Shown: piece after piece, positions 298 through 23,576 of the stretch
How the letters are laid out: every line of letters begins with the position of its first letter
Position numbering within the stretch: the first letter of the stretch is position 1
Origin: Lewinellaceae bacterium
GTDB lineage: Bacteria; Bacteroidota; Bacteroidia; Chitinophagales; Saprospiraceae
Direction of reading: 5' to 3'
Assembly (NCBI GenBank): GCA_947476195.1
Contig: CANJPT010000046.1
Coordinates: 1 to 33,807, forward strand
DNA: 33,807 nucleotides
Notes under the pieces: generated by a model
Told to the model about the DNA's origin: nothing
The model's input: the letters and a program-made list of their open reading frames with translations, nothing else
The model's database searches: none
Translations under genes and position numbers: made by a program

Positions 298-346
298 CCA
301 CGTGAGGTGACAACTCCTGGTTCACCGAAGATGTCACCTCAAGTGG
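298..346. repeat. Inverted repeat downstream of the macroglobulin gene
   Basis: The arms TGAGGTGACA (303-312) and TGTCACCTCA (332-341) are perfect reverse complements around a 19-nt centre. After one mismatch the stem extends four more pairs on each side (298-301 with 343-346). No T run follows on either strand, so it is not a classical intrinsic terminator. The same arm sequence (TGAGGTG/CACCTCA) recurs as a tight palindrome inside waaA at 17348-17374, which suggests a dispersed repeat rather than a gene-specific signal. Confidence 0.6.
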
Positions 347-351
347 TTGCT

Positions 352-3300
352 TTATTCCACCCTCACCCGAACTCCCTTAGAATGACTCGTAAACTCTGGC
401 GCATACATGCACTGCATCGTCGTGATCCCGTTGCTCATATCTCCGCGCAGAGACACGACCAACGGATATTCAAACACAAAGGTGCCGCGTGGCAGGTAAT
501 CAATGAAAAAGTGAGTAGCCAGGTCCTTGGTGCTTTCATAGTAGCCAAGGCCGCCTTGATAGCGGTAACCACTGAGTACATTGACGGGCTCGAGGCCGGA
601 GGCACGCATGTCTTTCAGGTGTACGAACTCCATGGCGCGGTCTACCCTTATCTCTATGCGGACTTTGATCTTGTCGCCGCGTTTTAAGATTTGTCCATCG
701 GCGATCAATTTCAAAACCGGTCCGGTGGGCGAGTTTTCTTCCAGATACAATTGCTTCACGATGGTGAGCGGTGTTTTTTGGAAATCCTTAATCTTATCAA
801 GGTCCTCAAAATACTGCCAGTAGGCAGCGCCCCACACGATGTTGCTGTTCGGGTTTTCGACCTTGATCTCGGCCCAGGATTTTTTAACCTCCGCACCGCT
901 CCAGCTTTGTTTGAAGTATCCGGTTCCGGCTTCGTACTCGTTCACATTCAAAAGAGTGCCGCCCATGGAGACTTTTACCGGTTGAGTATTATTTAGCCAA
1001 TTGGCTGGCGCGGGGTTGAGCCCCGTGTTAAGTAAAAGCGCATACACGGCCTCAGCAGTCGCTTTGGTGCTTTCCCAGCGGTTGGTCTGTTTGTTTTTCA
1101 GCAACCAGATGCGCAGTTCTTCCACCGCTTTGGCATCGTTGGCCACTTCGCTGAATACTTCCACCATGAGGGCCTGGGTCTCTACCGGCAACTGATACCA
1201 GTAATAACCCCAGTCCACCGGCCAGAACATGCCCAACTCTTCTTTCTGGGTGGCGCGTTCCCGCAGACTGGCCAAGATCTTCGCAGCAGCATCTTTGCGG
1301 CCGTACCGATTCAGGGCCAGGGCCAGCATGCCTTCCTGGTACAGGCCTTTGCCAAGCCAGTATTTATCTGCTTGTCCGAGATAGTAACCGATTTCTTTGC
1401 TCGGGCGATCTACCGGACGGAAAGACCTGGCATAGAGGAATTGAATAGCCATGCCGTCGAGGTGATCGTCCTCCATTTTGGTTTTACCGGCTTTGGCAAG
1501 ACGCTCGAGTTCGGCGTATTGTTCGTTGAGTTTGCGGTCGCAATAGCCCAGGGCCTTGTCCAGCATTTGTGCCGACTTCTGGTCTTTCATCGGATCAAAG
1601 GCGCCGAGTTTTTGCAGGTGCATGAATCCACTCACGATGTGCTGGGTCATGTACCAGCTGTCTTGTCCGCCTGTGAACCAGGGCCAGCCACCGCTGACCA
1701 ATTGACGTTCAGCCAGGGTGTTCAGGGCGCGTTCGCGTTCGTCGGCCATTTTATTGAGGTCGAACAAGAGGGCGATGTTCTGTTTTTGCTGTTCCTCGCT
1801 TTGCGCGTCCAGTACCCAGGGGGTTTCTTCCAGGAGGGCGTATTTGAGTTCCTGGTTTTTGCTCAGGTTGGACTTCAGTGCTTCGCTGCCCTGCGCCTTC
1901 CAGCGGTCAAATACCCGCTTGATCTGCGGCATCTTTTCCACGACATTCGCGGCCAGGGTATTGGCATACAATCGACTGAAAACCTGTTCGGAACATTCGT
2001 GTGGGAACTCCATCAGGTAGGGTAGGGACTGCACCGCGTACCAGACCGGATTGGATGTAAACTCCAGGGTTAAGTTTTTAGTGGTCAGTGTTCCGCCAGT
2101 TGGCGCATTCTTCAGATTTTCAAACGTGAATGTTTTAGTCTGATTGCCACGCAAGGAAATAGGCATTGTCTCAGTCACGAGCATTCGGTTGCTAACCACG
2201 GGAATGGTACTTTCTTCCCCATCCCGGAATCCGTTTCCATCGGCAAAGATCTGCCAGGTAAGGGCGCCAGAATAGTCTTCAGGTACTTTAATGCGCCATG
2301 CTACTGCAGCTGACTGACCAGGCAATACAGAGAACCGGGCAATACGGTTGTTTTTCGCCAATCCAAAGGATTGTTCTACCACAGCCAGCGTGGCCGCATC
2401 CAGGAGTGCCAGGGTAGCGGTGCCTTCGATCTTTTCCTTTGAAAGGTTACTTACTTTGGCAGAAAACTCGATCTCATCATCCTGACGTAGGAAGCGGGGT
2501 GGGTTGGCAATCACCATGAGTTCTTTTTGTGTCACTACTTCTTTCACGGACAGCACCTGTTGCAGCTCCTTCGTGTGGGTATACGTGAGCAGCTTCCATC
2601 GGGTGAGCGCCTCATTCATCGTGAATTTAAGTATGACATTGCCCTCCGCGTCGGTTCGCAGTTCGGGGAAGAAAAAGACCGTCTCATTCAGGTTGCGTCG
2701 AATGGCTGCTGTTGGAGCCGGAGGGGCTGGTTGAGCAGGCTTGGTTGCGGTGGTATCTTCTTCTTTGTCATAGCGAGCCTCTGAATTGAGGTCATGTGAA
2801 AAGGTCTCATTTTTTCTTCCTGCCTTTTGTCTGGGCGCGCCTACTCCGAGCATGGCCGGGGGTTCCTGCAACGTCATATAATCGACCATAACAGCGCGCT
2901 CCATGGGATAACGTCCTCCGCCCCACATCGGGAAGCCGAACCAATTGAGTTCCCGAAAAGTCCGGCTGGGTACAAATTCCTGCTCCGTGCTTTCATATCG
3001 GATCTGCCCGCCATTGATCCCGAAATTTACGTTGGTGTTTAAATTCACCTGGGCATAGTTGCCAGGGAAGGGAATACCGGACCAGTCGTGTGGCATGAAT
3101 TGGTCCAGGGAAGCATCGTACATCGCAGCCACCATTTCTGCTGCTACCTTGTCTTTATTGGGTCCGCTGATCTTGATGCGCCATTCTTCTTTTTGTCCGG
3201 GGGCAAGTTTGTCCCGGAAGGTTTCGTAGCTGATCTTTAGCTCCTTGTTGCTCCAGGGCACATTGAGGTAGATCTGCTCATTGCCATAGACCCGGTTGTT

Positions 3301-6300
3301 CAGGATACAAAACCAATGGGTGCTGATCCCGCCCCGGTCGCTTTCCTGAATCGGAATTTCAGCAATAGAGAGGTTTTTGATCCGGGCGCTGACCCATTCC
3401 GGTTTTTGTAGTATGCCGGATTCTTCCGGGGCAAAGAAAAAATGCAAGCCGTCTGTTTTGCCCCCAAAGGAGATCTGTGCCGTTTCACCGGGCTCCAGGG
3501 TGGTCTTTTTGGCTGCGGCGCCGGGTTTCTCAAAGCGGGTATCAGCCGTCCAGACCCGCACATATTTTTCGATCTCGATCTTTTCGCCAAAGGCATCTTT
3601 GGTGCTCAGTTTTGCCAGATACCAACCGGCCATCGTGCGATCCTGGTGCAGGTCGAGGGTTTTGTCTGTGGCTGTATTGAAAGGGATGCTGCGGATAAAA
3701 TCTTCCCGTCCCCATTTAGCCGGGTCGTCTTCGTCTTTCCAGGCCATGCCCGGGAACATTTTTTCAAAATCACTTTTGGAAATGGTATTGATGTCCGGAC
3801 GTTCCCACAAACGATCTTTGAAAAACAGCGCCGGGGCAACCAGTTGTTGCAGGGTGATCTGGCCTTCGGCAGCCTGCGCTTGCCCCGCCATGTTGGTCGT
3901 GCTCAGCCCGATGTGTCGCAAACTATCCAGCTGAATTTCGGCGGGCAGGTCCCATTGAACCTGCAAGGCAATATAGCCGGCGCTTACACTGGCGGTCGTG
4001 CTATGGGTTTCGCCGGTGATGTCGGTAACGTCCACTAAAACCTCGAAATCAAAGATAGGCTGGTCTTTTTTAGGAATGCTCCCGTCCGGAATCGCCGTGA
4101 ACTCCACGGCAAAACTACCATCAGCCCCACTGGTCGTGGTGCCATTGGTGATCTCCATTTCTGGGGCATTGAAGTACCAGGGGCGTTTCCAGGAGCGGTA
4201 ATAATCCCAGAACGGGAATCGGGCCCGTCGCACAACGCGGTATTTAACTTCCGCTCCGTCCACTACATTGCCAGCGTAGTTTTTGGCTTCTCCGCGCACA
4301 GTGATCTTTTCATTGACCCGGAACGCGCCTTCCACCGGTTTCATGGTCACCTCAAAACGGGGGCGTTTGTATTCTTCCACACTGATATACGCGGTGCCGT
4401 CGGCGCCATTGGAGGCGCCGATACTCATTTGCCCCATCAGTCCGGTGGAAGGAGCGGTAAAGCTGCCGTTGAAACTTCCGAATTCATTGCTTTTTAGCTT
4501 TAACTCGGTCTTTACCTGATGGTTTGCATCGTAGAACGTGACCGTCACCGACTGGTTTGGGACGATCTGCGGTGGCAGACTTTTTCTGGTTTCATCGGTC
4601 GTTTGCTGGTACAGGATTCCTTTGAAATAGACGGTCTGTCCGGGGCGGTATATACTGCGGTCGGTGAAAAACTGAACGAGATCTGTTCGTTCGGCCCGGT
4701 CGCGGTATTTTTGATTGATGGCATCACCGATCCAAAGGGTGTCTTTGTCCAGGGAGGCACGCGCCATCGCATATTTGCGCTCCGGGATCCCGGATTTGGC
4801 CAGGCCTTCCCGATCGCTGCTGGTGGTGCCGATCATTCTGAGCTGCTGTTTGCCTGAATTGTAGTCGCGCTCAAAAAAGTCGAGTTTAACGCCCACCAGC
4901 GGGGTGCCTAAATTTCGGTGCGCCAGCACAAAACGGGTTTGGCCCAATTCGTTATAGCTGACTGAAGCAAGGTTAGAAATAGAGAAATTGGCATAGACAA
5001 CCCGACCTTTTTCGTGTTTGAAATCGGCATTTTCAGACACAAAGACCCAGTAATTGCCGAAAGGCAGTCCGTCCAGCGCGATCTCTGTCTGATGCTGCTG
5101 GTAGTCGCCCGGATTTTGAATGTCCCAAGCGCGACTTTGGACCGGGCGGAGTCCATTCAGGTAGGTGAATTGTTGATCCCAGGGAATACCAGCCCATTTG
5201 TCCTGATCAAAGTCGGATTTGACCACCTTCACCCATACTTTTTTCAGGTTGCGGTAGCCTACCTGAACGAGGATGTTCTGGTTTGGTAAATTGACCTCTT
5301 CCACATTGGTCGTGAGCATGGTAGCCTGAATCTCCCGGAGCAATTGTTTGCAAAGGGCTGCTCCATAGGTGTCAGGGTGTCGGCTGATCGCTGCTTCCAG
5401 TTCAGCCACGGCTGTTTTGGCATTGGCGCCTTTATCACCCGTTTCCAGGTAATAAATATAAGAAGCCAGCGCCCGAACTACTTCGCCATCAAAAGGATGG
5501 TTTTCTGCCTCTTTTTTGAGTTTTTCTAAGGCTTTGCGGTAAAGCTCATTTTTATTTTCCAGGGTAGAATTGTTTAAAACGAACTGCAGGCGTCTCAGTT
5601 CTACCTCAAAAAGAGCGGCTTTCGCTGCGGTTTGATTGCCGGCAGACCTGGGGTCATGCGCCCGGATCAGTTTTTGAAACAGCTGTATGGCCATCCATTT
5701 ACCCGAGGTGATATCCTGGGTTTCATATTTTCTGTCCTGAAAAACGCTCCAGTCTGCAAAATCCTCCGGGCTGTTCAGTTGGAACGCATAGGCAGGTTCG
5801 GTGAGGTAACTGCGTTCATTGCTGAAATGCTCCAGCGCGCGTTGTGCGAGCAGATCGAAGAGGGTAGGGCGGAGGAGGGTTTTTCCAACGGAATCGTTTT
5901 GACTCTCGGTCGTTATGTCGCGAAATTGTTCGACCGGAACCATTTTGAGCAGCTCCTCCTGCGCAACAGAGGCCGTATTGAGTTCAAGGGTATGTTTTTC
6001 AATTTGGGCGGCACTCCAGGTCAGGATATCGCCGCCTTCTCCATCGGGGATAGGGGTACGGTCGCCGAGGTTCCAGCCCTGGTTTTGAAGGTAAACGGAG
6101 TAAAGTTGTCCGAGGATGCTTTGCAGCACCGATTTTTCGGGTTGACTGGCGGCCAGGCTTTCTTTTTCAATGGTCAGGATCGCTTTGGTAAGTCCGTCCT
6201 CTTCGAGCATGGTCATAAATTTGCCCCGGAAGAGGATGGCTTTTACGATCTGCGGGGCGTTTTTGTCGCGTTTGGCGCGGGCCTGAATGGCCTCTGTTTT

Positions 6301-6528
6301 TTCCATCGCGCTTTTAAAGAGTCCCTGCTTCTGTAGGCTATCTACGATCTTCCAGTCATCCGCGTAATCATCATACATAGTGATCAAAGGTGGAATAGGC
6401 ATTTCGGTACTTGGTTTAGTTTTGATACTTGTGGTGTTTGGTTGCGCTTTATTTTCCAACCATTTGCAGGCTAAAAAAGCAAATGGCAAAATACAAATGG
6501 CAAGAGACAGTTTTTTGTGAAAAGGCAT
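352..6528 (-). CDS. Alpha-2-macroglobulin family lipoprotein
   Basis: This is a very large (2058 aa) bacterial alpha-2-macroglobulin, an envelope protein thought to trap proteases through an internal thioester. The open frame reaches a TTG at 6534, but the ATG at 6528 is the better start and leads directly into KK, a hydrophobic stretch and FLAC, a lipobox with Cys21. Residues about 30-430 are mainly helical and TPR-like. An MG2-type domain (DRSIYRPGQTVYFKG) begins near residue 616, the A2M domain (NETVFFFPELRTD) near 1275, and the thioester motif C-S-E-Q is at 1512-1515 (codons 1984-1995), followed by an alpha-toroid thioester domain. The C-terminal receptor-binding-like domain ends HSKGVRVRVE. 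The residues after the lipid Cys (KWLENK) do not match the known Bacteroidota surface-export signal, so the side of the outer membrane cannot be told. It stands alone, without the penicillin-binding protein 1C gene that often accompanies this family. Confidence 0.93.
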   Translation of the reverse strand: MPFHKKLSLAICILPFAFLACKWLENKAQPNTTSIKTKPSTEMPIPPLITMYDDYADDWKIVDSLQKQGLFKSAMEKTEAIQARAKRDKNAPQIVKAILFRGKFMTMLEEDGLTKAILTIEKESLAASQPEKSVLQSILGQLYSVYLQNQGWNLGDRTPIPDGEGGDILTWSAAQIEKHTLELNTASVAQEELLKMVPVEQFRDITTESQNDSVGKTLLRPTLFDLLAQRALEHFSNERSYLTEPAYAFQLNSPEDFADWSVFQDRKYETQDITSGKWMAIQLFQKLIRAHDPRSAGNQTAAKAALFEVELRRLQFVLNNSTLENKNELYRKALEKLKKEAENHPFDGEVVRALASYIYYLETGDKGANAKTAVAELEAAISRHPDTYGAALCKQLLREIQATMLTTNVEEVNLPNQNILVQVGYRNLKKVWVKVVKSDFDQDKWAGIPWDQQFTYLNGLRPVQSRAWDIQNPGDYQQHQTEIALDGLPFGNYWVFVSENADFKHEKGRVVYANFSISNLASVSYNELGQTRFVLAHRNLGTPLVGVKLDFFERDYNSGKQQLRMIGTTSSDREGLAKSGIPERKYAMARASLDKDTLWIGDAINQKYRDRAERTDLVQFFTDRSIYRPGQTVYFKGILYQQTTDETRKSLPPQIVPNQSVTVTFYDANHQVKTELKLKSNEFGSFNGSFTAPSTGLMGQMSIGASNGADGTAYISVEEYKRPRFEVTMKPVEGAFRVNEKITVRGEAKNYAGNVVDGAEVKYRVVRRARFPFWDYYRSWKRPWYFNAPEMEITNGTTTSGADGSFAVEFTAIPDGSIPKKDQPIFDFEVLVDVTDITGETHSTTASVSAGYIALQVQWDLPAEIQLDSLRHIGLSTTNMAGQAQAAEGQITLQQLVAPALFFKDRLWERPDINTISKSDFEKMFPGMAWKDEDDPAKWGREDFIRSIPFNTATDKTLDLHQDRTMAGWYLAKLSTKDAFGEKIEIEKYVRVWTADTRFEKPGAAAKKTTLEPGETAQISFGGKTDGLHFFFAPEESGILQKPEWVSARIKNLSIAEIPIQESDRGGISTHWFCILNNRVYGNEQIYLNVPWSNKELKISYETFRDKLAPGQKEEWRIKISGPNKDKVAAEMVAAMYDASLDQFMPHDWSGIPFPGNYAQVNLNTNVNFGINGGQIRYESTEQEFVPSRTFRELNWFGFPMWGGGRYPMERAVMVDYMTLQEPPAMLGVGAPRQKAGRKNETFSHDLNSEARYDKEEDTTATKPAQPAPPAPTAAIRRNLNETVFFFPELRTDAEGNVILKFTMNEALTRWKLLTYTHTKELQQVLSVKEVVTQKELMVIANPPRFLRQDDEIEFSAKVSNLSKEKIEGTATLALLDAATLAVVEQSFGLAKNNRIARFSVLPGQSAAVAWRIKVPEDYSGALTWQIFADGNGFRDGEESTIPVVSNRMLVTETMPISLRGNQTKTFTFENLKNAPTGGTLTTKNLTLEFTSNPVWYAVQSLPYLMEFPHECSEQVFSRLYANTLAANVVEKMPQIKRVFDRWKAQGSEALKSNLSKNQELKYALLEETPWVLDAQSEEQQKQNIALLFDLNKMADERERALNTLAERQLVSGGWPWFTGGQDSWYMTQHIVSGFMHLQKLGAFDPMKDQKSAQMLDKALGYCDRKLNEQYAELERLAKAGKTKMEDDHLDGMAIQFLYARSFRPVDRPSKEIGYYLGQADKYWLGKGLYQEGMLALALNRYGRKDAAAKILASLRERATQKEELGMFWPVDWGYYWYQLPVETQALMVEVFSEVANDAKAVEELRIWLLKNKQTNRWESTKATAEAVYALLLNTGLNPAPANWLNNTQPVKVSMGGTLLNVNEYEAGTGYFKQSWSGAEVKKSWAEIKVENPNSNIVWGAAYWQYFEDLDKIKDFQKTPLTIVKQLYLEENSPTGPVLKLIADGQILKRGDKIKVRIEIRVDRAMEFVHLKDMRASGLEPVNVLSGYRYQGGLGYYESTKDLATHFFIDYLPRGTFVFEYPLVVSLRGDMSNGITTMQCMYAPEFTSHSKGVRVRVE

Positions 6529-6555
6529 ATTCAAAAATGTTGGGTGATGGTATTA

Positions 6556-16393: not shown

Positions 16394-16439
16394 TGTGGTC
16401 AATGGGTTTAATGTGGTCAATGTGTAAATGTAGTCAATG
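16392..16439 (+). repeat. Short imperfect tandem repeat of AATGTGGTCAATG
   Basis: Three copies occur: 16392-16404 and 16410-16422 are identical, and 16427-16439 has one change (GTAGTC). The third copy contains the waaA start codon at 16437-16439. Similar copies (AATGTGGTCAAT, AATGTGGCCAATG) occur at the start of the flippase gene near 25124-25154. Confidence 0.6.
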
Positions 16440-17735
16440 GTTTTAATATACGATATACTCATAAGATTGTTTGTGCTGGGCATTCATATTGCCGCGCTGT
16501 TTAGCCCAAAAGCACGGCTTTGGGTGGAAGGGCGGCGTCATTGGCGAAAGCGTTTAAAGTCGGAGTTCAATTTTGAACATGGGCCCGATATTAGTCAACG
16601 CTCAAAAGTTCTATGGGTCCACGCCGCTTCGCTTGGAGAGTTTGAACAGGGGCGTCCGGTAATCGAAGCTTTCCGGGAGAAATATCCAGCCTGGAAGATC
16701 GTGCTGACTTTTTTTTCTCCTTCTGGTTATGTGCTCAGGAAAGATTATCCCCACGCGGATCTGGTCTGTTACCTACCGGCAGATACACGCACCAATGCGA
16801 TTGATTTCCTCGATCTGATCAAGCCAGATGTGGCCATTTTCATCAAATACGAGTTTTGGGCTAATTATCTGTTTGAACTTAAAAAACGAGGTACGACCAC
16901 ACTGTTAGTCTCTGCACTTTTCCGCCCTTCCCAGCCGTTTTTTAAATGGTATGGTGGTTTCTGGCGAAAGATGATGGCTTGTTTTACCCATATTTTTGTG
17001 CAAAATCCAATTTCCGCAACTTTGCTGGGAAAGATTGGGCTAGGTATGGATTCTGGTAAACTTACTGTTGCGGGTGATACACGGGTAGATCGGGTACTTA
17101 AAATTGCAGCAGCAGCTCAACCGAATCAAATTGTGCAGGCATTTGTGCAGGAAGATTCGAATACAGTGCTGGTAATCGGCAGTTCCTGGGAACATGATGA
17201 AGCGGTGATCTTTGATACGCTTAGTGCAGCAAATCATTCAAATCTCCTTCCAAACAGACCTACACTGATTATCGCTCCACACGAACCCTCTGAAGAGAAT
17301 GTGCTGCGCATTTGCAGGCAAGCGGGAAATGCCGTTCGGTATTCGCGTTTTTTTGAGGTGTCACCTCAAAAAAACACCAGCCTCGTTATCGATAATATCG
17401 GACTTCTGAACACGCTGTACCGCTATGGTACCATCGCATACATCGGTGGCGGCTTTGGTAAAAGCATCCATAATGCCCTGGAACCAGCAGCTTTTGGGCT
17501 TCCGGTTATTTTTGGGCCGAAATACGAGAAGTTTGAAGAAGCACGTCAGTTTGTGGCGCGAGGCGGCGCGTTTCCGGTGCGGAATGCGGAAGAATTGGCG
17601 GCAATTTTAGGGAAGCTACAAGATCCTGTTTTTTATAAAAAAGCCTCTGACGCGGTGCTGGGTTATTTGGAAGAAAGCCGTGGAGCTACAGAAAAAGTGA
17701 TGGCGTTTTTGGAGGATAAGTTTGGACAGTGTTGA
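16437..17735 (+). CDS. waaA: 3-deoxy-D-manno-octulosonic acid (Kdo) transferase
   Basis: WaaA transfers Kdo from CMP-Kdo to the lipid A precursor at the inner face of the cytoplasmic membrane. The 432-aa product has an N-terminal membrane anchor (residues 4-22), the basic segment RRHWRKRL, and the GT30 signature HAASLGEFEQGRP with the catalytic-base Glu at position 68. The CMP-Kdo-binding C-terminal half shows IIAPHEPSEENV, IDNIGLLNTLYRYGTIAYIGGGFGKSIHN and the Glu of LEPAAFGLPVIFGP. The start codon lies in a short tandem repeat. A perfect 27-bp palindrome (17348-17374) encodes FFEVSPQKN in the variable linker before IDNIG. Whether the enzyme adds one or two Kdo cannot be told from sequence. 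Confidence 0.96.
   Translation: MVLIYDILIRLFVLGIHIAALFSPKARLWVEGRRHWRKRLKSEFNFEHGPDISQRSKVLWVHAASLGEFEQGRPVIEAFREKYPAWKIVLTFFSPSGYVLRKDYPHADLVCYLPADTRTNAIDFLDLIKPDVAIFIKYEFWANYLFELKKRGTTTLLVSALFRPSQPFFKWYGGFWRKMMACFTHIFVQNPISATLLGKIGLGMDSGKLTVAGDTRVDRVLKIAAAAQPNQIVQAFVQEDSNTVLVIGSSWEHDEAVIFDTLSAANHSNLLPNRPTLIIAPHEPSEENVLRICRQAGNAVRYSRFFEVSPQKNTSLVIDNIGLLNTLYRYGTIAYIGGGFGKSIHNALEPAAFGLPVIFGPKYEKFEEARQFVARGGAFPVRNAEELAAILGKLQDPVFYKKASDAVLGYLEESRGATEKVMAFLEDKFGQC
17348..17374. repeat. Perfect 27-bp palindrome inside waaA
   Basis: Seven T, then GAGGTG, a single T, CACCTC, then seven A: 13-bp arms around one base. It codes for about nine residues (F-F-E-V-S-P-Q-K-N) in a linker of WaaA. The core TGAGGTG/TCACCTCA equals the arms of the inverted repeat at 303-341 with its central 24 nt removed. 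In RNA it would look like a short terminator hairpin with a run of A after it on this strand. Confidence 0.85.
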
Positions 17736-17918: not shown

Positions 17919-20900
17919 TCAATTCACCACTTCCACCCATTTTCCGGGCGCTACCGCCCGGATCCGATTGTCATACATGGCTTCGCAAGCGACCGCAGGC
18001 ATGAAATACCGTCCGGCATAAGCAGCATTTAACTGGATATTATAGGTGCGTGATTGCTTCATGTTTTTGTTGTTGCTCCAGTTGAAGGGCAGGTCGAAAT
18101 ACGTAAAGACCCGATCGTCCCGCACATCCTGATAATCCATTGGGTCTGAAGTGGAGCCGCCCACGAGATTCATGCGGGTGTTCAGAATTTCCCAACCTGA
18201 AGGAAATATTTGTGAAAGAGCCAACTCATTGAAGTCAAAGCGCATGCTACCCGTGCGGGTCACCGTTACTTCAGCAAGAAAATCCGTGCCTTGTTTCAGT
18301 TTACCTGGCTCAATAGCTGAGCCCTTCAGATCGGTGTACCGCACGCCAAGGGTGATGTTACTGCTTTCAGCGGGAATGTCCGTGGATGTTGGGCGTCCAC
18401 GCATGACGATACGGCTGTAAAGTTTTTGCTTACTCAGATTTTTAACCGAGATGCCACTGGTGATCTCGTTGTTGTCCAGGCTATACAAGTAGTAGGCTGT
18501 GGTGCTGTTGACCGGAATGTCCCGACCGCCCGCTTTGATCACGAAATCGGATTTGTCACCCAAGGTTGCCTTTTTCGCATACTTAGCCAATGCACGAAGA
18601 CAAGTGCCAACCTCTTGAGTGGAATGCCAGCGGGCTGCGTCACCAATCTGCGTCGCAACTTGTAAAGCTACGTCCAGGCCGCGTTTGTTGTCGCCCATAG
18701 CCGTCAGGGTTTCCAGTTTCAGGGCCAGATCGCGTAAATCCGAGCCGTAGGTGTAGCCCCACCAGGTATAAGTGAATTTACTGTTATTCAGGTCGTTTAG
18801 CAGTTCCTTTGCAGCTTCATTTTTGCCGGATGTGGCAAATGCTGCCGCTAAAAGTGAAGAAGCGCTTTCAAATTTCTTCTTTTGTTCACGCATTCGGTTC
18901 ATCCCTGCGAGGTCCGGTCTCCCGGCCAGCGCAAGGGTATAAAGTCGGTAGGCCTGGGCCATTTCATTGCCGTGCCGGTTATAGCTATTTGGATCATTGT
19001 CCGCAACAGGTTCCCAGGTACGGGAGGTATTGGTTTGATAATCCACCCATTTGTCAAGTATTTGTTGCGGAACAGCGTAACCACGTGCTTTCGCTTCGAG
19101 TAGGAAGTGCCCCGCGTAAGTGCCAGCCCAATCAGCTACTTCGTTGGAGCCAGCCCAGTAGGAAAAGCCACCGGAAGCCATTTGGAAGTTTTGTAGTTTG
19201 GCTATCGCTGCTGTGACGTTTTTCTGAATGGCCAGCTGTTGAATGTCGTTTACCGGAGAGATGATATCCACATAAAGCTGAGGGAAAGCAGCTGAGGTCG
19301 TCTGCTCAATACAGCCATGGGGATATTTTATAAGGTATTCAAGCTGTTTAGACAGGTTGATCGCTGGGATACTACTCACCTCCAACACTGCTCGTTCGAG
19401 CTCGCCGAAATCAGTGGCCTTGGAGGCCTGCGTCCAGGTCTGTCCAGGTTCAATGCTGCCATCCAGAACCCGGGTAATGACCGGATTAGGGTTCCTGACT
19501 TCTATTTCTATGTCTGAAGAGGCCGTTTCACTGCCTCCAGTTGCGAGAATTTTAAACTTCGCAATCCCCGTTTTTTGACCTGCTTTTAATTCAAAATAGG
19601 TCAGTTTTTGACCAGGTTCAGAGAATGTAAGGTTGTTTATGCTGGCTCCACCAATGCTTACAAGGCCGCTGCTTTCCCGAACTGAAATATTAGCGCTGTT
19701 GACCGAATTATCCATAGCAAACACTTCCACGGGCAAACGAAGGGTCTCTCCCGGCCCAAGTACCCTAGGTAAAGTCGGCATAATCATGAGCGGTTTACGC
19801 ACAGGGCAGGTTTTTTCAGCATTGCCATAAGCACCCTCTCCTCCGGCTGCCGGAGCGGAAAGCACCGCCATCACGCGCACAGAGCCTACATAGTTATCAA
19901 TTTTCAAGCGGTGTTTGGCCACTTGCCCTTTTTCAAGCTTGAATGGTCCCAGGTGAATCACGCAGGGTTTAAAACGATTTACCTGTGTCGCGTTTTTTGC
20001 TTTCTGGTTGATCCCGTCACCCCCGATCGCGAGGATGCGTGAAAGTTCTGCGCCATAGGCTCCCAGTACATAATCGTAAATGTCCCAAGTTTTCACACCG
20101 TGAGCCTCGCGTGCATAGAACGCTTCCCAAGGATTGGGTGTTTTGAAACGGGTAAGGTCGAGCAGGCCTTCATCTACCACATCGAGGGTATACACGCAAG
20201 CTTTGCCGCCTTTTTCTTTCAGGGCGATGCTGAAGAACTCATCCGGTTTCAATTGATCCGGCATATCGATTTGCGCATCGAGTCGGGTAGTCGGACTTTC
20301 AATGTTCACCGGCGTGACCCCATACATTCGGATCGGGAGATCGTTTTTGGTCTGTGCATGCGGTTGAATGAGACTGACGTGAGCATACACCGTAGGCGCC
20401 ATGTCTTTTTCTGCTTTGAATTTCAAAAAGTTATCGCCAGCTACGGCATCGAACCACATGTGTTTTGCTACCCGGGTGCCAGTTTCAAGCGTTAAAAGGA
20501 TCCGCCCGTTTTTGCTGGCAGGAACTTTAAGTACTACTTCATCCCCAACCATGTATTTTTCCTTTTCAGCCGTGAAGGGCAACATTGCAGCTGCATTTCG
20601 GCTCTGGATATCATCCAGATGTTCTGGTTGTCCGGCCCAGAAAAAATCACCTGCTGTATGTCCATCTTCCGTATCGGCAATCCGCACGAGGTAACGTCCC
20701 CAGCCGCTGGGTTTTATGGTCCAGGTAGCTTGTCCGCGGGAATCGGTGACCAATTCGGCGTGATCTACCGCATTATTAAGTTCGCTGCTGTTGAATTGAC
20801 CGATGCCGGATTGAGCGTCATCATCCCACCACCAGCGCCAGTCTACGCGGTACAATGCGACTGTAACTTTGTGGTTGGCAACCGGTTTTCCCATGTTATT

Positions 20901-23576
20901 CAGCACTGCGAAATTGACTTTACTGCTGCCACTTTGATCCAGGGTTTTATTGCCCCATTTATCTGTGGGGATAAATACCCCTACAAAACGATCGTAAGGC
21001 AGTACGTCCAGGGCGAAATTGTCTGTACTAAAATCGCCACCGGCCTCGAAAGCGCGTACCTTAAAATTGGCGATGAGTTTGCCCGGCGCTGCGCTGACCT
21101 GACCGATTTTGAGCGGCACATTCGCTTGTCCGTTTTGGTCCAGATTCGCGTCGAACAGCATTTCAGGCTCTGAGTAAAAATACCGCGATGGATCATCAAA
21201 CGTGTAGCCTTTGTATCCGGTGAATTCAGTTTTAACAGCCCTTACCTGCATTTCTACTGTTGATTTCAGGTTTTGAGCCGTAGCACCGTGTAACCAATTT
21301 ACTTTCAAGGCTCCATTCAGGCCTTTGCCCTCTCCTCCAATGGCAAAATCTTTGGGGGTCAGGAAGGCACGTGGTCCAAAATTCAGATCCAGTTTTAAAC
21401 GGTTGGGTTTGACCGTTTCGATTTTTACGGTTCGGGTGAAGGTGGCGCCACCTGCCATGACTTTGGCCGTCCAGTTGCCAGTTTTAGCTTCGGCGCGGGT
21501 GCTGCAATAAAATGGGTAGACGCCATTTATCCCGGAGGTAGAAACCGTTCTGTACTGAAGCGAGCCACCAGGGTCTTTAAGTTCAAATATCACCGGGTGA
21601 CCTTGCGGGAGACGGCCTGTTTTGTCCTCTAACACGAAGTTTAAAAAGAGCGAGTCACCTGGCCTCCAAACACCGCGTTCCCCATATATATACCCTTTCA
21701 GGCCTTTCTGAGCTTCTACCCCAGCTACGTCGAAACGGCTGAGCGAGAGTGCATTACCATCCGCCATCCGAAGATAGCCGCGTCGACCCTGACCAGTTGC
21801 AACAGCTAAAAACGGTGTTTCACGCAATCCTTCCACCATCACGGTCCCATCTCCTTCTGTGCGGGTTTTTGCAATTGGTTGTAATTGGTAACTGAGTAAT
21901 TCGATGTCAATGCCGCTTACAGGCTGAGCTGTGTGCAGATCGGTTACAGCAAGAAAAAGTGAGCCATCGCGACCACGTTTGGCTGTCAGGCCGAGATCAC
22001 TGACGAATACATTTCGTTTGCTGAAGTGTTCGTTATTATAGTATTCTTTTGCGCAAGGGACTTCACGATTGTCCCAGGTAAAATCGTCTTGATCCCCCCA
22101 CCAGCCTTCGCTTTCGTCTTCATTCCAGTAAATACCACGATAGCCACCCATAATGCTTTGTACCATTCCAGCTTCAGGGCCGTTCCCGTCATTAGCGGCG
22201 ATTGAAGCTGTGGAGCAGGAAGTATAATCCATTTTGAATGCCAGGCGGACCTGATAGATCGCGCCAGGGTCTTTTTGGATCATGTCTTTCAGGTCTAAGG
22301 CATAGCGTTGCCACACTTTTGAAGAGGCTTCAGGATTGATCGCAGCGAGGTCAAATTTTTTCTGCAAAACAATTTTGCCAACCCGTTCCAACTCCTGTTC
22401 CTCTTCAAACTCGTTGACTTGCAGGAATTGTAAGATATTGGAATTGAATATTTTGAAGACTTCCACATCCACGGAGGTAAGGCCAACCGCTTCGAACGGA
22501 AAGATCACACCGCCGCCAGTTTGCTGTGGAATAATCGCTCCGCGGCCCACCAGTCGAACACCGGGTTTTAGATCTTCGAAGTTTAAATTCCACTCGCCGG
22601 AAGCATTTAACCCTTGTCCGGCGGCACTACGGATGCTGCCATCCACCAGGAGTTTTTTTACGCCTGTAATCCGCTCATCTGGATATACACGCACGAAATT
22701 CCCATCTGTAACGTAGCGCAATTTGCCATTGAAATTATCGATTCGTACCAGGCCAGATAAATCCTGTGCAGCAGAGAGCGGGTCAGAAAAATTCAGTAAA
22801 ATATATTGTTCTTCAACTTGCACTGCTTTGGCGGAAAGTATCAGGAATTCGCCAAATGGGGGTACGGACTGTTCTTCTGAAATACTTTTTTCTACCCCGA
22901 TCGGAGCGCCAGACCATGCAAGGTGTACACTGCTGGCAGCATTGGAGCGTTCCACGCCAGCTACGGTCCAGTCATGCGAAAGACCATCTGGGCCGTGTTT
23001 CCAACTAACCAGCAAGGCTTTATTACCTTGTTTGGCGTTGATCATCTGTTCAATCTTAGCAGCCTCGCAGGATTCGTTCACGTGAACCCGCCCGGTTACG
23101 CGTTGTTGACGTGGGTCGCTCGGGTCTGCAGAAAGTCCCTCGGTTACCACTTCATAGGCCAGTTCTCGGACATTGAAATCAAATTCAAAGGAGCCTGCAA
23201 GACTTGGAGCATCCGCATAAATGCGTTTAACTGAGACTTGCGCTGAATAGTGTTTGCCGGGCTTTAAAGCTTGAGCAGGCGTAAGTTTAATGGTGCGATC
23301 ATCTTCCCAGATTGCTTTGCCCTCGATTTTTGGATCAGTAGAAAATACATTGGCGGGTACGTCTTTACCGACCTGTTCCTGCGAGACCGCAGCATTCACA
23401 AATCGTACACGCACTACATCATCTCTACTGATAGAGCCGGATGTAAAGGCATATATATACCTGGAGACGGCCTCGTAGTAAGCCTCGTTTTTAACAACTT
23501 TCTGACTACGGAGGAGTAAAAAAAGGCCAGCAGCTGCAGCTGTGGCGAGCAGGGTGATAGCTATTTGCTTTCGCAT
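17919..23576 (-). CDS. Alpha-2-macroglobulin family protein, membrane-anchored
   Basis: An 1885-aa bacterial alpha-2-macroglobulin of the YfhM-like type, a periplasmic protease trap. Residues 5-22 form one hydrophobic segment without a lipobox Cys, so it is an uncleaved anchor or signal peptide. The MG1-type start (YAFTSGSISRDDVVRVRF) follows. An MG2-type segment (YIYGERGVWRPGDSLFLNF) is near residue 625, the A2M domain (KLEKGQVAKHRLKIDNYVGSVRVM) near 1200, and the thioester motif H-G-C-I-E-Q has Cys1422 and Gln1425. The helical thioester domain runs to about 1700 and the receptor-binding-like end follows. No penicillin-binding protein 1C gene, its usual neighbour, is present. It is only distantly related to the 352-6528 protein. 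A possible TAnnTTTG element (TACTTTTG, minus strand 23698-23705) would give a leader of about 115 nt. Confidence 0.93.
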   Translation of the reverse strand: MRKQIAITLLATAAAAGLFLLLRSQKVVKNEAYYEAVSRYIYAFTSGSISRDDVVRVRFVNAAVSQEQVGKDVPANVFSTDPKIEGKAIWEDDRTIKLTPAQALKPGKHYSAQVSVKRIYADAPSLAGSFEFDFNVRELAYEVVTEGLSADPSDPRQQRVTGRVHVNESCEAAKIEQMINAKQGNKALLVSWKHGPDGLSHDWTVAGVERSNAASSVHLAWSGAPIGVEKSISEEQSVPPFGEFLILSAKAVQVEEQYILLNFSDPLSAAQDLSGLVRIDNFNGKLRYVTDGNFVRVYPDERITGVKKLLVDGSIRSAAGQGLNASGEWNLNFEDLKPGVRLVGRGAIIPQQTGGGVIFPFEAVGLTSVDVEVFKIFNSNILQFLQVNEFEEEQELERVGKIVLQKKFDLAAINPEASSKVWQRYALDLKDMIQKDPGAIYQVRLAFKMDYTSCSTASIAANDGNGPEAGMVQSIMGGYRGIYWNEDESEGWWGDQDDFTWDNREVPCAKEYYNNEHFSKRNVFVSDLGLTAKRGRDGSLFLAVTDLHTAQPVSGIDIELLSYQLQPIAKTRTEGDGTVMVEGLRETPFLAVATGQGRRGYLRMADGNALSLSRFDVAGVEAQKGLKGYIYGERGVWRPGDSLFLNFVLEDKTGRLPQGHPVIFELKDPGGSLQYRTVSTSGINGVYPFYCSTRAEAKTGNWTAKVMAGGATFTRTVKIETVKPNRLKLDLNFGPRAFLTPKDFAIGGEGKGLNGALKVNWLHGATAQNLKSTVEMQVRAVKTEFTGYKGYTFDDPSRYFYSEPEMLFDANLDQNGQANVPLKIGQVSAAPGKLIANFKVRAFEAGGDFSTDNFALDVLPYDRFVGVFIPTDKWGNKTLDQSGSSKVNFAVLNNMGKPVANHKVTVALYRVDWRWWWDDDAQSGIGQFNSSELNNAVDHAELVTDSRGQATWTIKPSGWGRYLVRIADTEDGHTAGDFFWAGQPEHLDDIQSRNAAAMLPFTAEKEKYMVGDEVVLKVPASKNGRILLTLETGTRVAKHMWFDAVAGDNFLKFKAEKDMAPTVYAHVSLIQPHAQTKNDLPIRMYGVTPVNIESPTTRLDAQIDMPDQLKPDEFFSIALKEKGGKACVYTLDVVDEGLLDLTRFKTPNPWEAFYAREAHGVKTWDIYDYVLGAYGAELSRILAIGGDGINQKAKNATQVNRFKPCVIHLGPFKLEKGQVAKHRLKIDNYVGSVRVMAVLSAPAAGGEGAYGNAEKTCPVRKPLMIMPTLPRVLGPGETLRLPVEVFAMDNSVNSANISVRESSGLVSIGGASINNLTFSEPGQKLTYFELKAGQKTGIAKFKILATGGSETASSDIEIEVRNPNPVITRVLDGSIEPGQTWTQASKATDFGELERAVLEVSSIPAINLSKQLEYLIKYPHGCIEQTTSAAFPQLYVDIISPVNDIQQLAIQKNVTAAIAKLQNFQMASGGFSYWAGSNEVADWAGTYAGHFLLEAKARGYAVPQQILDKWVDYQTNTSRTWEPVADNDPNSYNRHGNEMAQAYRLYTLALAGRPDLAGMNRMREQKKKFESASSLLAAAFATSGKNEAAKELLNDLNNSKFTYTWWGYTYGSDLRDLALKLETLTAMGDNKRGLDVALQVATQIGDAARWHSTQEVGTCLRALAKYAKKATLGDKSDFVIKAGGRDIPVNSTTAYYLYSLDNNEITSGISVKNLSKQKLYSRIVMRGRPTSTDIPAESSNITLGVRYTDLKGSAIEPGKLKQGTDFLAEVTVTRTGSMRFDFNELALSQIFPSGWEILNTRMNLVGGSTSDPMDYQDVRDDRVFTYFDLPFNWSNNKNMKQSRTYNIQLNAAYAGRYFMPAVACEAMYDNRIRAVAPGKWVEVVN

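Follow-up and report, generated by a model that had tools for sequence, protein, structure and literature searches.

An in-frame palindrome in waaA of a Lewinellaceae bacterium and its relation to a dispersed family of palindromic repeats

How does a conserved enzyme gene come to hold a perfect palindrome within its reading frame, and is this palindrome related to an inverted repeat that lies between genes on the same contig? The question is raised by waaA, the Kdo transferase gene of a Lewinellaceae bacterium, in a stretch of 33,807 nt that was analysed as a whole and is here called the window. The genome under study (G000) comprises 4.76 Mb in 224 contigs. The features concerned are collected in Table 1.

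Table 1. Features of the window discussed in the text
Feature	Position	Strand	Details
waaA (Kdo transferase), host gene	16437..17735	+	PF04413; sequence matches to solved structures 2xci and 4bfc
Perfect palindrome, putative shortened element	17347..17375	+	14-bp arms, 1-nt centre; GTTTTTTTGAGGTG / T / CACCTCAAAAAAAC
Full-length intergenic copy	298..346		Core 304-340, 37 nt; arms 18 nt at 89%; R1 E 4.6e-10, itself an R1 training sequence
Bacterial alpha-2-macroglobulin-like gene	352..6534	-	3′ end 5 nt from the end of the intergenic copy

The palindrome in waaA and its intergenic counterpart

The original prediction gave the waaA palindrome arms of 13 bp around one base at 17348-17374; the sequence is as described, but the perfect arms extend to 14 bp (Table 1). 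The palindrome is made up of a 13-nt core, GAGGTGTCACCTC (17355-17367), and the outer arms GTTTTTTT/AAAAAAAC, and encodes FFEVSPQKN within the linker that separates RYS from LVIDNIG. When loops of 0-1 nt are considered, the runner-up among perfect arms in the window measures 7. First-order Markov simulation of the window (150 runs) gave arms of at most 12, and 2000 synonymous-codon randomisations of waaA gave arms of at most 10. These comparisons confirm that the palindrome is real and more than a product of chance.

Its correspondence with the intergenic repeat is exact. As predicted, the repeat at 303-341 minus its central 24 nt gives the waaA core, 15 bp at 17354-17368, and the phase is the same at both loci, GAG GTG ... 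TCA CCT reading E-V ... S-P in each. A search of the window for the core with up to three mismatches returned five matches (both strands of the same site being included for several), all at the waaA and intergenic sites, against 0.54 expected. The alpha-2-macroglobulin-like gene next to the intergenic copy is one of two large genes of this type in the window; the other lies at 17919-23576, also on the minus strand.

A family of palindromic repeats in the genus

Enrichment of the core in the genome had been proposed as a check. The exact 13-nt core is found at four sites in G000 and its reversed control at none, which agrees with the proposal in number; two of the sites, however, are the arms of a single copy in anmK, and one, in a Sortilin/BNR gene on contig C28, is probably native sequence, judged from its context, the fourth being waaA. 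A site with one mismatch on C5 was also judged native from context, and neither was retained as a family copy. Five full-length G000 copies, namely those in anmK, at window position 298 and on C56, C2 and C113, served to train a covariance model (R1). Applied to G000, it necessarily recovers its own training copies; beyond these it detects a sixth full-length copy, on C136 (E 0.002), and that in waaA (E 0.075; 24.4 bits), the latter being matched with its centre missing. The full-length copies of G000 accordingly number six, among them the intergenic copy at 298-346 and the in-frame one in anmK, and the waaA copy comes in addition.

R1 matches at E<=0.1 occur in 22 of 60 genomes, that is, in 21 of 37 of the same genus (G000 counted) and in one of 23 others, a few of them being weak. 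With a degenerate core pattern, 59 stretches were retrieved from named genomes, every one of which bears the title of a Saprospiraceae or Bacteroidota MAG. The exact short core is present in 12 of 41 genus genomes, absent from the other 29, and abundant solely in G008 (50 sites) and G024 (155 sites), partly as tandem arrays. The same figures were obtained for GAGGTGWCACCTC in these two genomes (50 and 155; L255, L257), the arrays often having a period of 27-28 nt where viewed. An Rfam search of four loci (18,714 bases) yielded no family at the gathering score and only miRNA models below it; among titles and abstract openings of the literature on palindromic repeats in Saprospiraceae, no description of a ~47-bp repeat family was found. 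The waaA and intergenic repeats are shown to belong to a family of dispersed ~47-bp palindromic repeats of the genus, and the earlier inference that the two loci share an origin is upheld by the six full-length copies in G000 and the further ones in the genus.

The full unit of about 47 bp consists of a 37-nt core, GAGGTGACA-N19-TGTCACCTC, and an outer arm of about 5 bp, which is specific to the copy and often complementary. In a set of 91 copies (85 among the R1 matches listed and the six of G000) the core measures 37 nt in 75. A crude ORF call places 68 of the 91 between genes, 16 across the end of an ORF and 7 within one; of these seven, the anmK copy and L163 were confirmed as internal to proteins with Pfam domains. 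L118 and L172 were rejected as coding copies upon inspection, the ORF calls over them being probably non-coding 5′ extensions, and L174 (called “partial”) and L331 (another repeat) were likewise set aside. Among 109 copies found with the inner-core pattern, 43 neighbouring pairs are less than 200 nt apart, and 38 of the 43 are in inverted (+-) order. In G006 a doublet adjoins waaA and provides its stop codon.

The outer arms were recounted. R1 spans exactly the outer five pairs, and the sharp arm end seen with it was therefore suspect; the recount used inner-core sets found without flank letters. R1 was the source of 80 loci of the 109-copy set used for flank tags, but of none in the 40- and 104-copy sets used for arm pairing. 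In the set of 40, flank positions 1-5 are complementary in 25, 26, 25, 29 and 21 copies and position 6 in 7; shuffles gave means of 10-14 and maxima of 18-22, position 5 being no higher than its shuffle maximum. In the 104 copies from named genomes the counts are 59, 59, 56, 80 and 70, each above every shuffle, and 17 at position 6. The two sets are not independent, since both include G030, G006, G014, G016 and G023, and copies within a genome are related. All five outer positions pair in 30 of the 104, with 16 different 5-mers, against 1.9 in shuffles (largest 6); the majority of copies do not pair at all five. The largest flank group among the 109 copies is that starting GTGAA.

The full-length copy in anmK (PF03702) of G000 has 20-bp arms and encodes FEVTPLEKEEVSPRK in frame. 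The linker in question is 16 aa long in G000 versus 11 in G010, the closest homologue by identity (83% over the part compared). Such a length is not unique because 4 of 29 homologues also have 16 residues, with no element seen; the other 25 have 10-12. In G010 (L205) and G022 (L182) the same anmK linker is built from short tandem repeats, and another linker of waaA in the related genome G064 (L323, near residue 55) contains an STVNSQQ repeat. In-frame uptake of repeated DNA may be a property of variable linkers.

The waaA linker in related genomes

The linker between S and LVIDN in G000 WaaA measures 12 aa. It is equally long in 22 of 34 aligned homologues, ten having 9-11 residues, one 15 and that of G064 17, the longest of all 35; judged by their linker residues, 33 of the 34 lack the element. 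The original prediction of an in-frame palindrome insertion is thereby divided: a shortened, in-frame copy is supported by the sequence comparison, whereas net lengthening of the protein is not. Homologues sharing both residues and length had been named as evidence to the contrary; none of the 22 of equal length shares the residues, and the comparison does not refute the prediction. As no residues were gained on balance in G000, the event would be a replacement of linker sequence and not a simple insertion.

The closest WaaA found, at 75% identity (42 genus genomes), is that of G064, the linker of which reads RWFKVIPSGSSEVSPSC. The underlying DNA appears to be a decayed long form with the 37-nt core and its centre; R1, of which it was no training sequence, scores it at 25.3 bits (E 2.3e-4 in 24.5 kb). 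The G000 and G064 linkers differ by 15 nt. When pairs of gaps were scanned, with 15 to 33 nt removed and the remainder restored, 24 nt out and 9 in came first with 40 of 57 identical bases, followed by 38 for the next pair; a single 15-nt gap gives 37. Over the first 30 linker bases a 24-nt cut results in 27 matches, versus 23 for no cut or for any other length up to 33. In the best alignment the G000 linker equals the G064 long form minus 24 nt (eight codons) plus 9 nt after the core, a parse that wins by just 2-3 bases and has ambiguous breakpoints. In a WaaA tree of 30 rows, G000 and G064 form a weakly supported pair (85/32), to which G010 stands closest (93/78). The G010 gene, at about 70% identity, is the closest without the element, and there is no clean empty site among the WaaA compared. 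On the aligned sequences, the orthologous waaA site is shown to hold what reads as the long form in one species and the short form in the other, both in frame.

Probable origin, alternatives and known repeat systems

With good confidence, we consider the waaA palindrome a probable shortened copy of a palindromic repeat that is non-autonomous and dispersed in the genus; the repeat is most likely tolerated selfish DNA. The history proposed here carries no assumed function for the repeat in waaA. A unit would have entered the variable linker in an ancestor shared by G000 and G064 and taken the place of some of its sequence, a supposition made because the length changes are small. The insert may have been tolerated because the core is an open frame on either strand (E-V-T-P...E-V-S-P) and the linker is presumably not critical. 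As each arm, GAGGTGACACCTC, is almost identical to its reverse complement, the unit is also a near-direct repeat with a spacing of 24 nt. Slippage between two GAGGTG repeats could then have deleted 24 nt in the G000 lineage and, this being eight codons, the reading frame would have been held. A plausible source of the perfect T7/A7 outer arms is arm-to-arm copying, which may have kept or made them; such template switching is described as making inverted-repeat arms alike in coding DNA and as able to create or keep hairpins (PMC8604942, PMC8794818). Long and short forms in orthologous waaA suggest how the repeat within an insert can serve to shorten it without loss of frame.

No transposase is linked to the repeat family. 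A possible though doubtful mode of spread is hairpin-primed copying, in which an inverted copy of about five host bases would be made and the target overwritten, not extended. If true, this would explain the copy-specific, often complementary 5-bp arms with their sharp end at position 6, as well as the coding copies that change protein length little. Outer arms that vary and yet are complementary make the mode of spread testable.

Mobilisation of the repeat as a REP/REPIN by a RAYT (Y1) transposase is unlikely. The copies do occur as inverted doublets, between genes and many near gene ends; Y1_Tnp genes are present in 47 of the 60 genomes, and a Bacteroidetes Y1 subclass is described as having atypical flanking structures copied elsewhere in the genome (PMC6006769). 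However, G035 has 50 R1 matches (both strands) and no Y1_Tnp, whereas G010, G012 and G020 have 6, 6 and 9 Y1_Tnp and no R1 matches, and in five draft genomes no contig is common to copies and Y1 genes among the matches listed. A copy and a Y1 gene share one contig of G037, about 2.4 kb apart, but another ORF separates them and no strong match flanks the Y1 gene. Nor is there a GTAG or CGTC tag: in the 14-nt flanks of the 109 copies, GTAG reaches at most 5 per position (right flank, offset 6) and CGTC at most 1, and their reverse complements at most 1 and 2, respectively.

Selective maintenance of the waaA hairpin, whether through its mRNA structure or as a DNA site tuning waaA, seems quite improbable to us. 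Perfect arms in a diverged lineage and a predicted RNA fold of -15.3 kcal/mol (z -5.0) would fit such a role, but the element is missing from all but one of the other homologues aligned, the G064 form is imperfect (predicted fold z -2.85) and the same repeat is located at many unrelated places. Still less to be expected is a local origin by template switching on native waaA sequence, with mere resemblance to the family. The arm-equalising and hairpin-creating activity cited above (PMC8604942, PMC8794818) would allow it, and the waaA site is the sole one to extend as a palindrome (8 bp) among 49 distinct exact core sites of the loci examined (0-2 bp in the other 48); against it, the 13-nt core of waaA is the family core and the 37-nt core of the G064 orthologue includes its centre. 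That two unrelated palindromes coincide by chance can practically be dismissed: the window contains just two copies, and a further exact core site elsewhere in the genome seems to be native, but the values observed exceed simulations and search controls, and the repeat family itself exists, including the G064 long form.

A shortened copy of a dispersed repeat, the reading preferred here, invites comparison with known systems. In-frame intragenic palindromic repeats are described for Rickettsia, Wolbachia and the GTAG/CGTC REPs of several species (PMC3733652, PMC2229807), from which they are best known; here the family is in Bacteroidota. Rickettsia palindromic elements (RPE) lie between genes and are also fused in frame in conserved protein genes, where they are apparently neutral or slightly harmful (PMC2229807, PMC3733652). 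The likeness to RPE suggested originally holds in this respect as a resemblance, the family being dispersed and located between genes as well as, in waaA and anmK, in frame within conserved genes. The RPE of PMC2229807 measure 105-146 bp versus about 47 bp for the Saprospiraceae/Bacteroidota repeat, which changes protein length little, and RPE-4 and RPE-6 are short CGTC REPs (PMC3733652), whereas the present repeat carries no CGTC tag. GTAG/CGTC REPs, BIMEs and REPINs are likewise described as short palindromes in inverted doublets near gene ends with occasional intragenic copies; they carry the tag, unlike this repeat, the copy number of which does not follow Y1 transposases. The repeat behaves like RPE and intragenic REPs, yet is filed as a member of neither named family because it has no GTAG/CGTC tag, does not track Y1 transposases in number and, on the four loci searched, matches no Rfam family at the gathering score.

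Two further systems share single properties with it. MITEs, too, are short inverted repeats that lack a transposase and in some cases have open frames fused to genes (PMC2229807), but they possess a constant terminal inverted repeat and a target duplication, whereas the outer arms here differ from copy to copy. The coding palindromes of Nematomorpha mitochondria are perfect inverted repeats inside functional protein genes (PMC6649704); in these, both arms encode conserved regions, and the abstract of that source mentions no dispersed repeat family.

Other coding palindromes were seen in these genomes. A general excess in G000 was considered and discarded: 53 palindromes (15 in ORFs) were counted in 434 kb, a non-random sample of which the window and the C2 and C8 copies formed part; the corresponding figures are 27 (6) for 184 kb of G064 and 56 (14) for 380 kb of G010. 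The G064 waaA gene has a second perfect coding palindrome (L323:1982-2018; 16-bp arms, 3-nt loop, TATTGAGGCGGTGACT...AGTCACCGCCTCAATA) in the linker before LIIAPHEP, and a similar hairpin with other outer arms and no long ORF over it is found in G010 (L356 near 14885). A palindrome of another kind, GTGATAG(T/C)CTCAC...GTGAGACTATCA, is present within the reading frames of a DAO-type oxidoreductase in G000 (L379 near 18133) and of a beta-helix/PA14 protein in G010 (L350 near 3958), and is perhaps another family with coding copies. In G064, perfect arms of 23 bp (CCCGGAACGCTGTTCCGGG type) are situated in frame in a melibiase-like protein (L340:3771-3823), and related repeats are located near the start of another ORF (L331 near 5351-5437).
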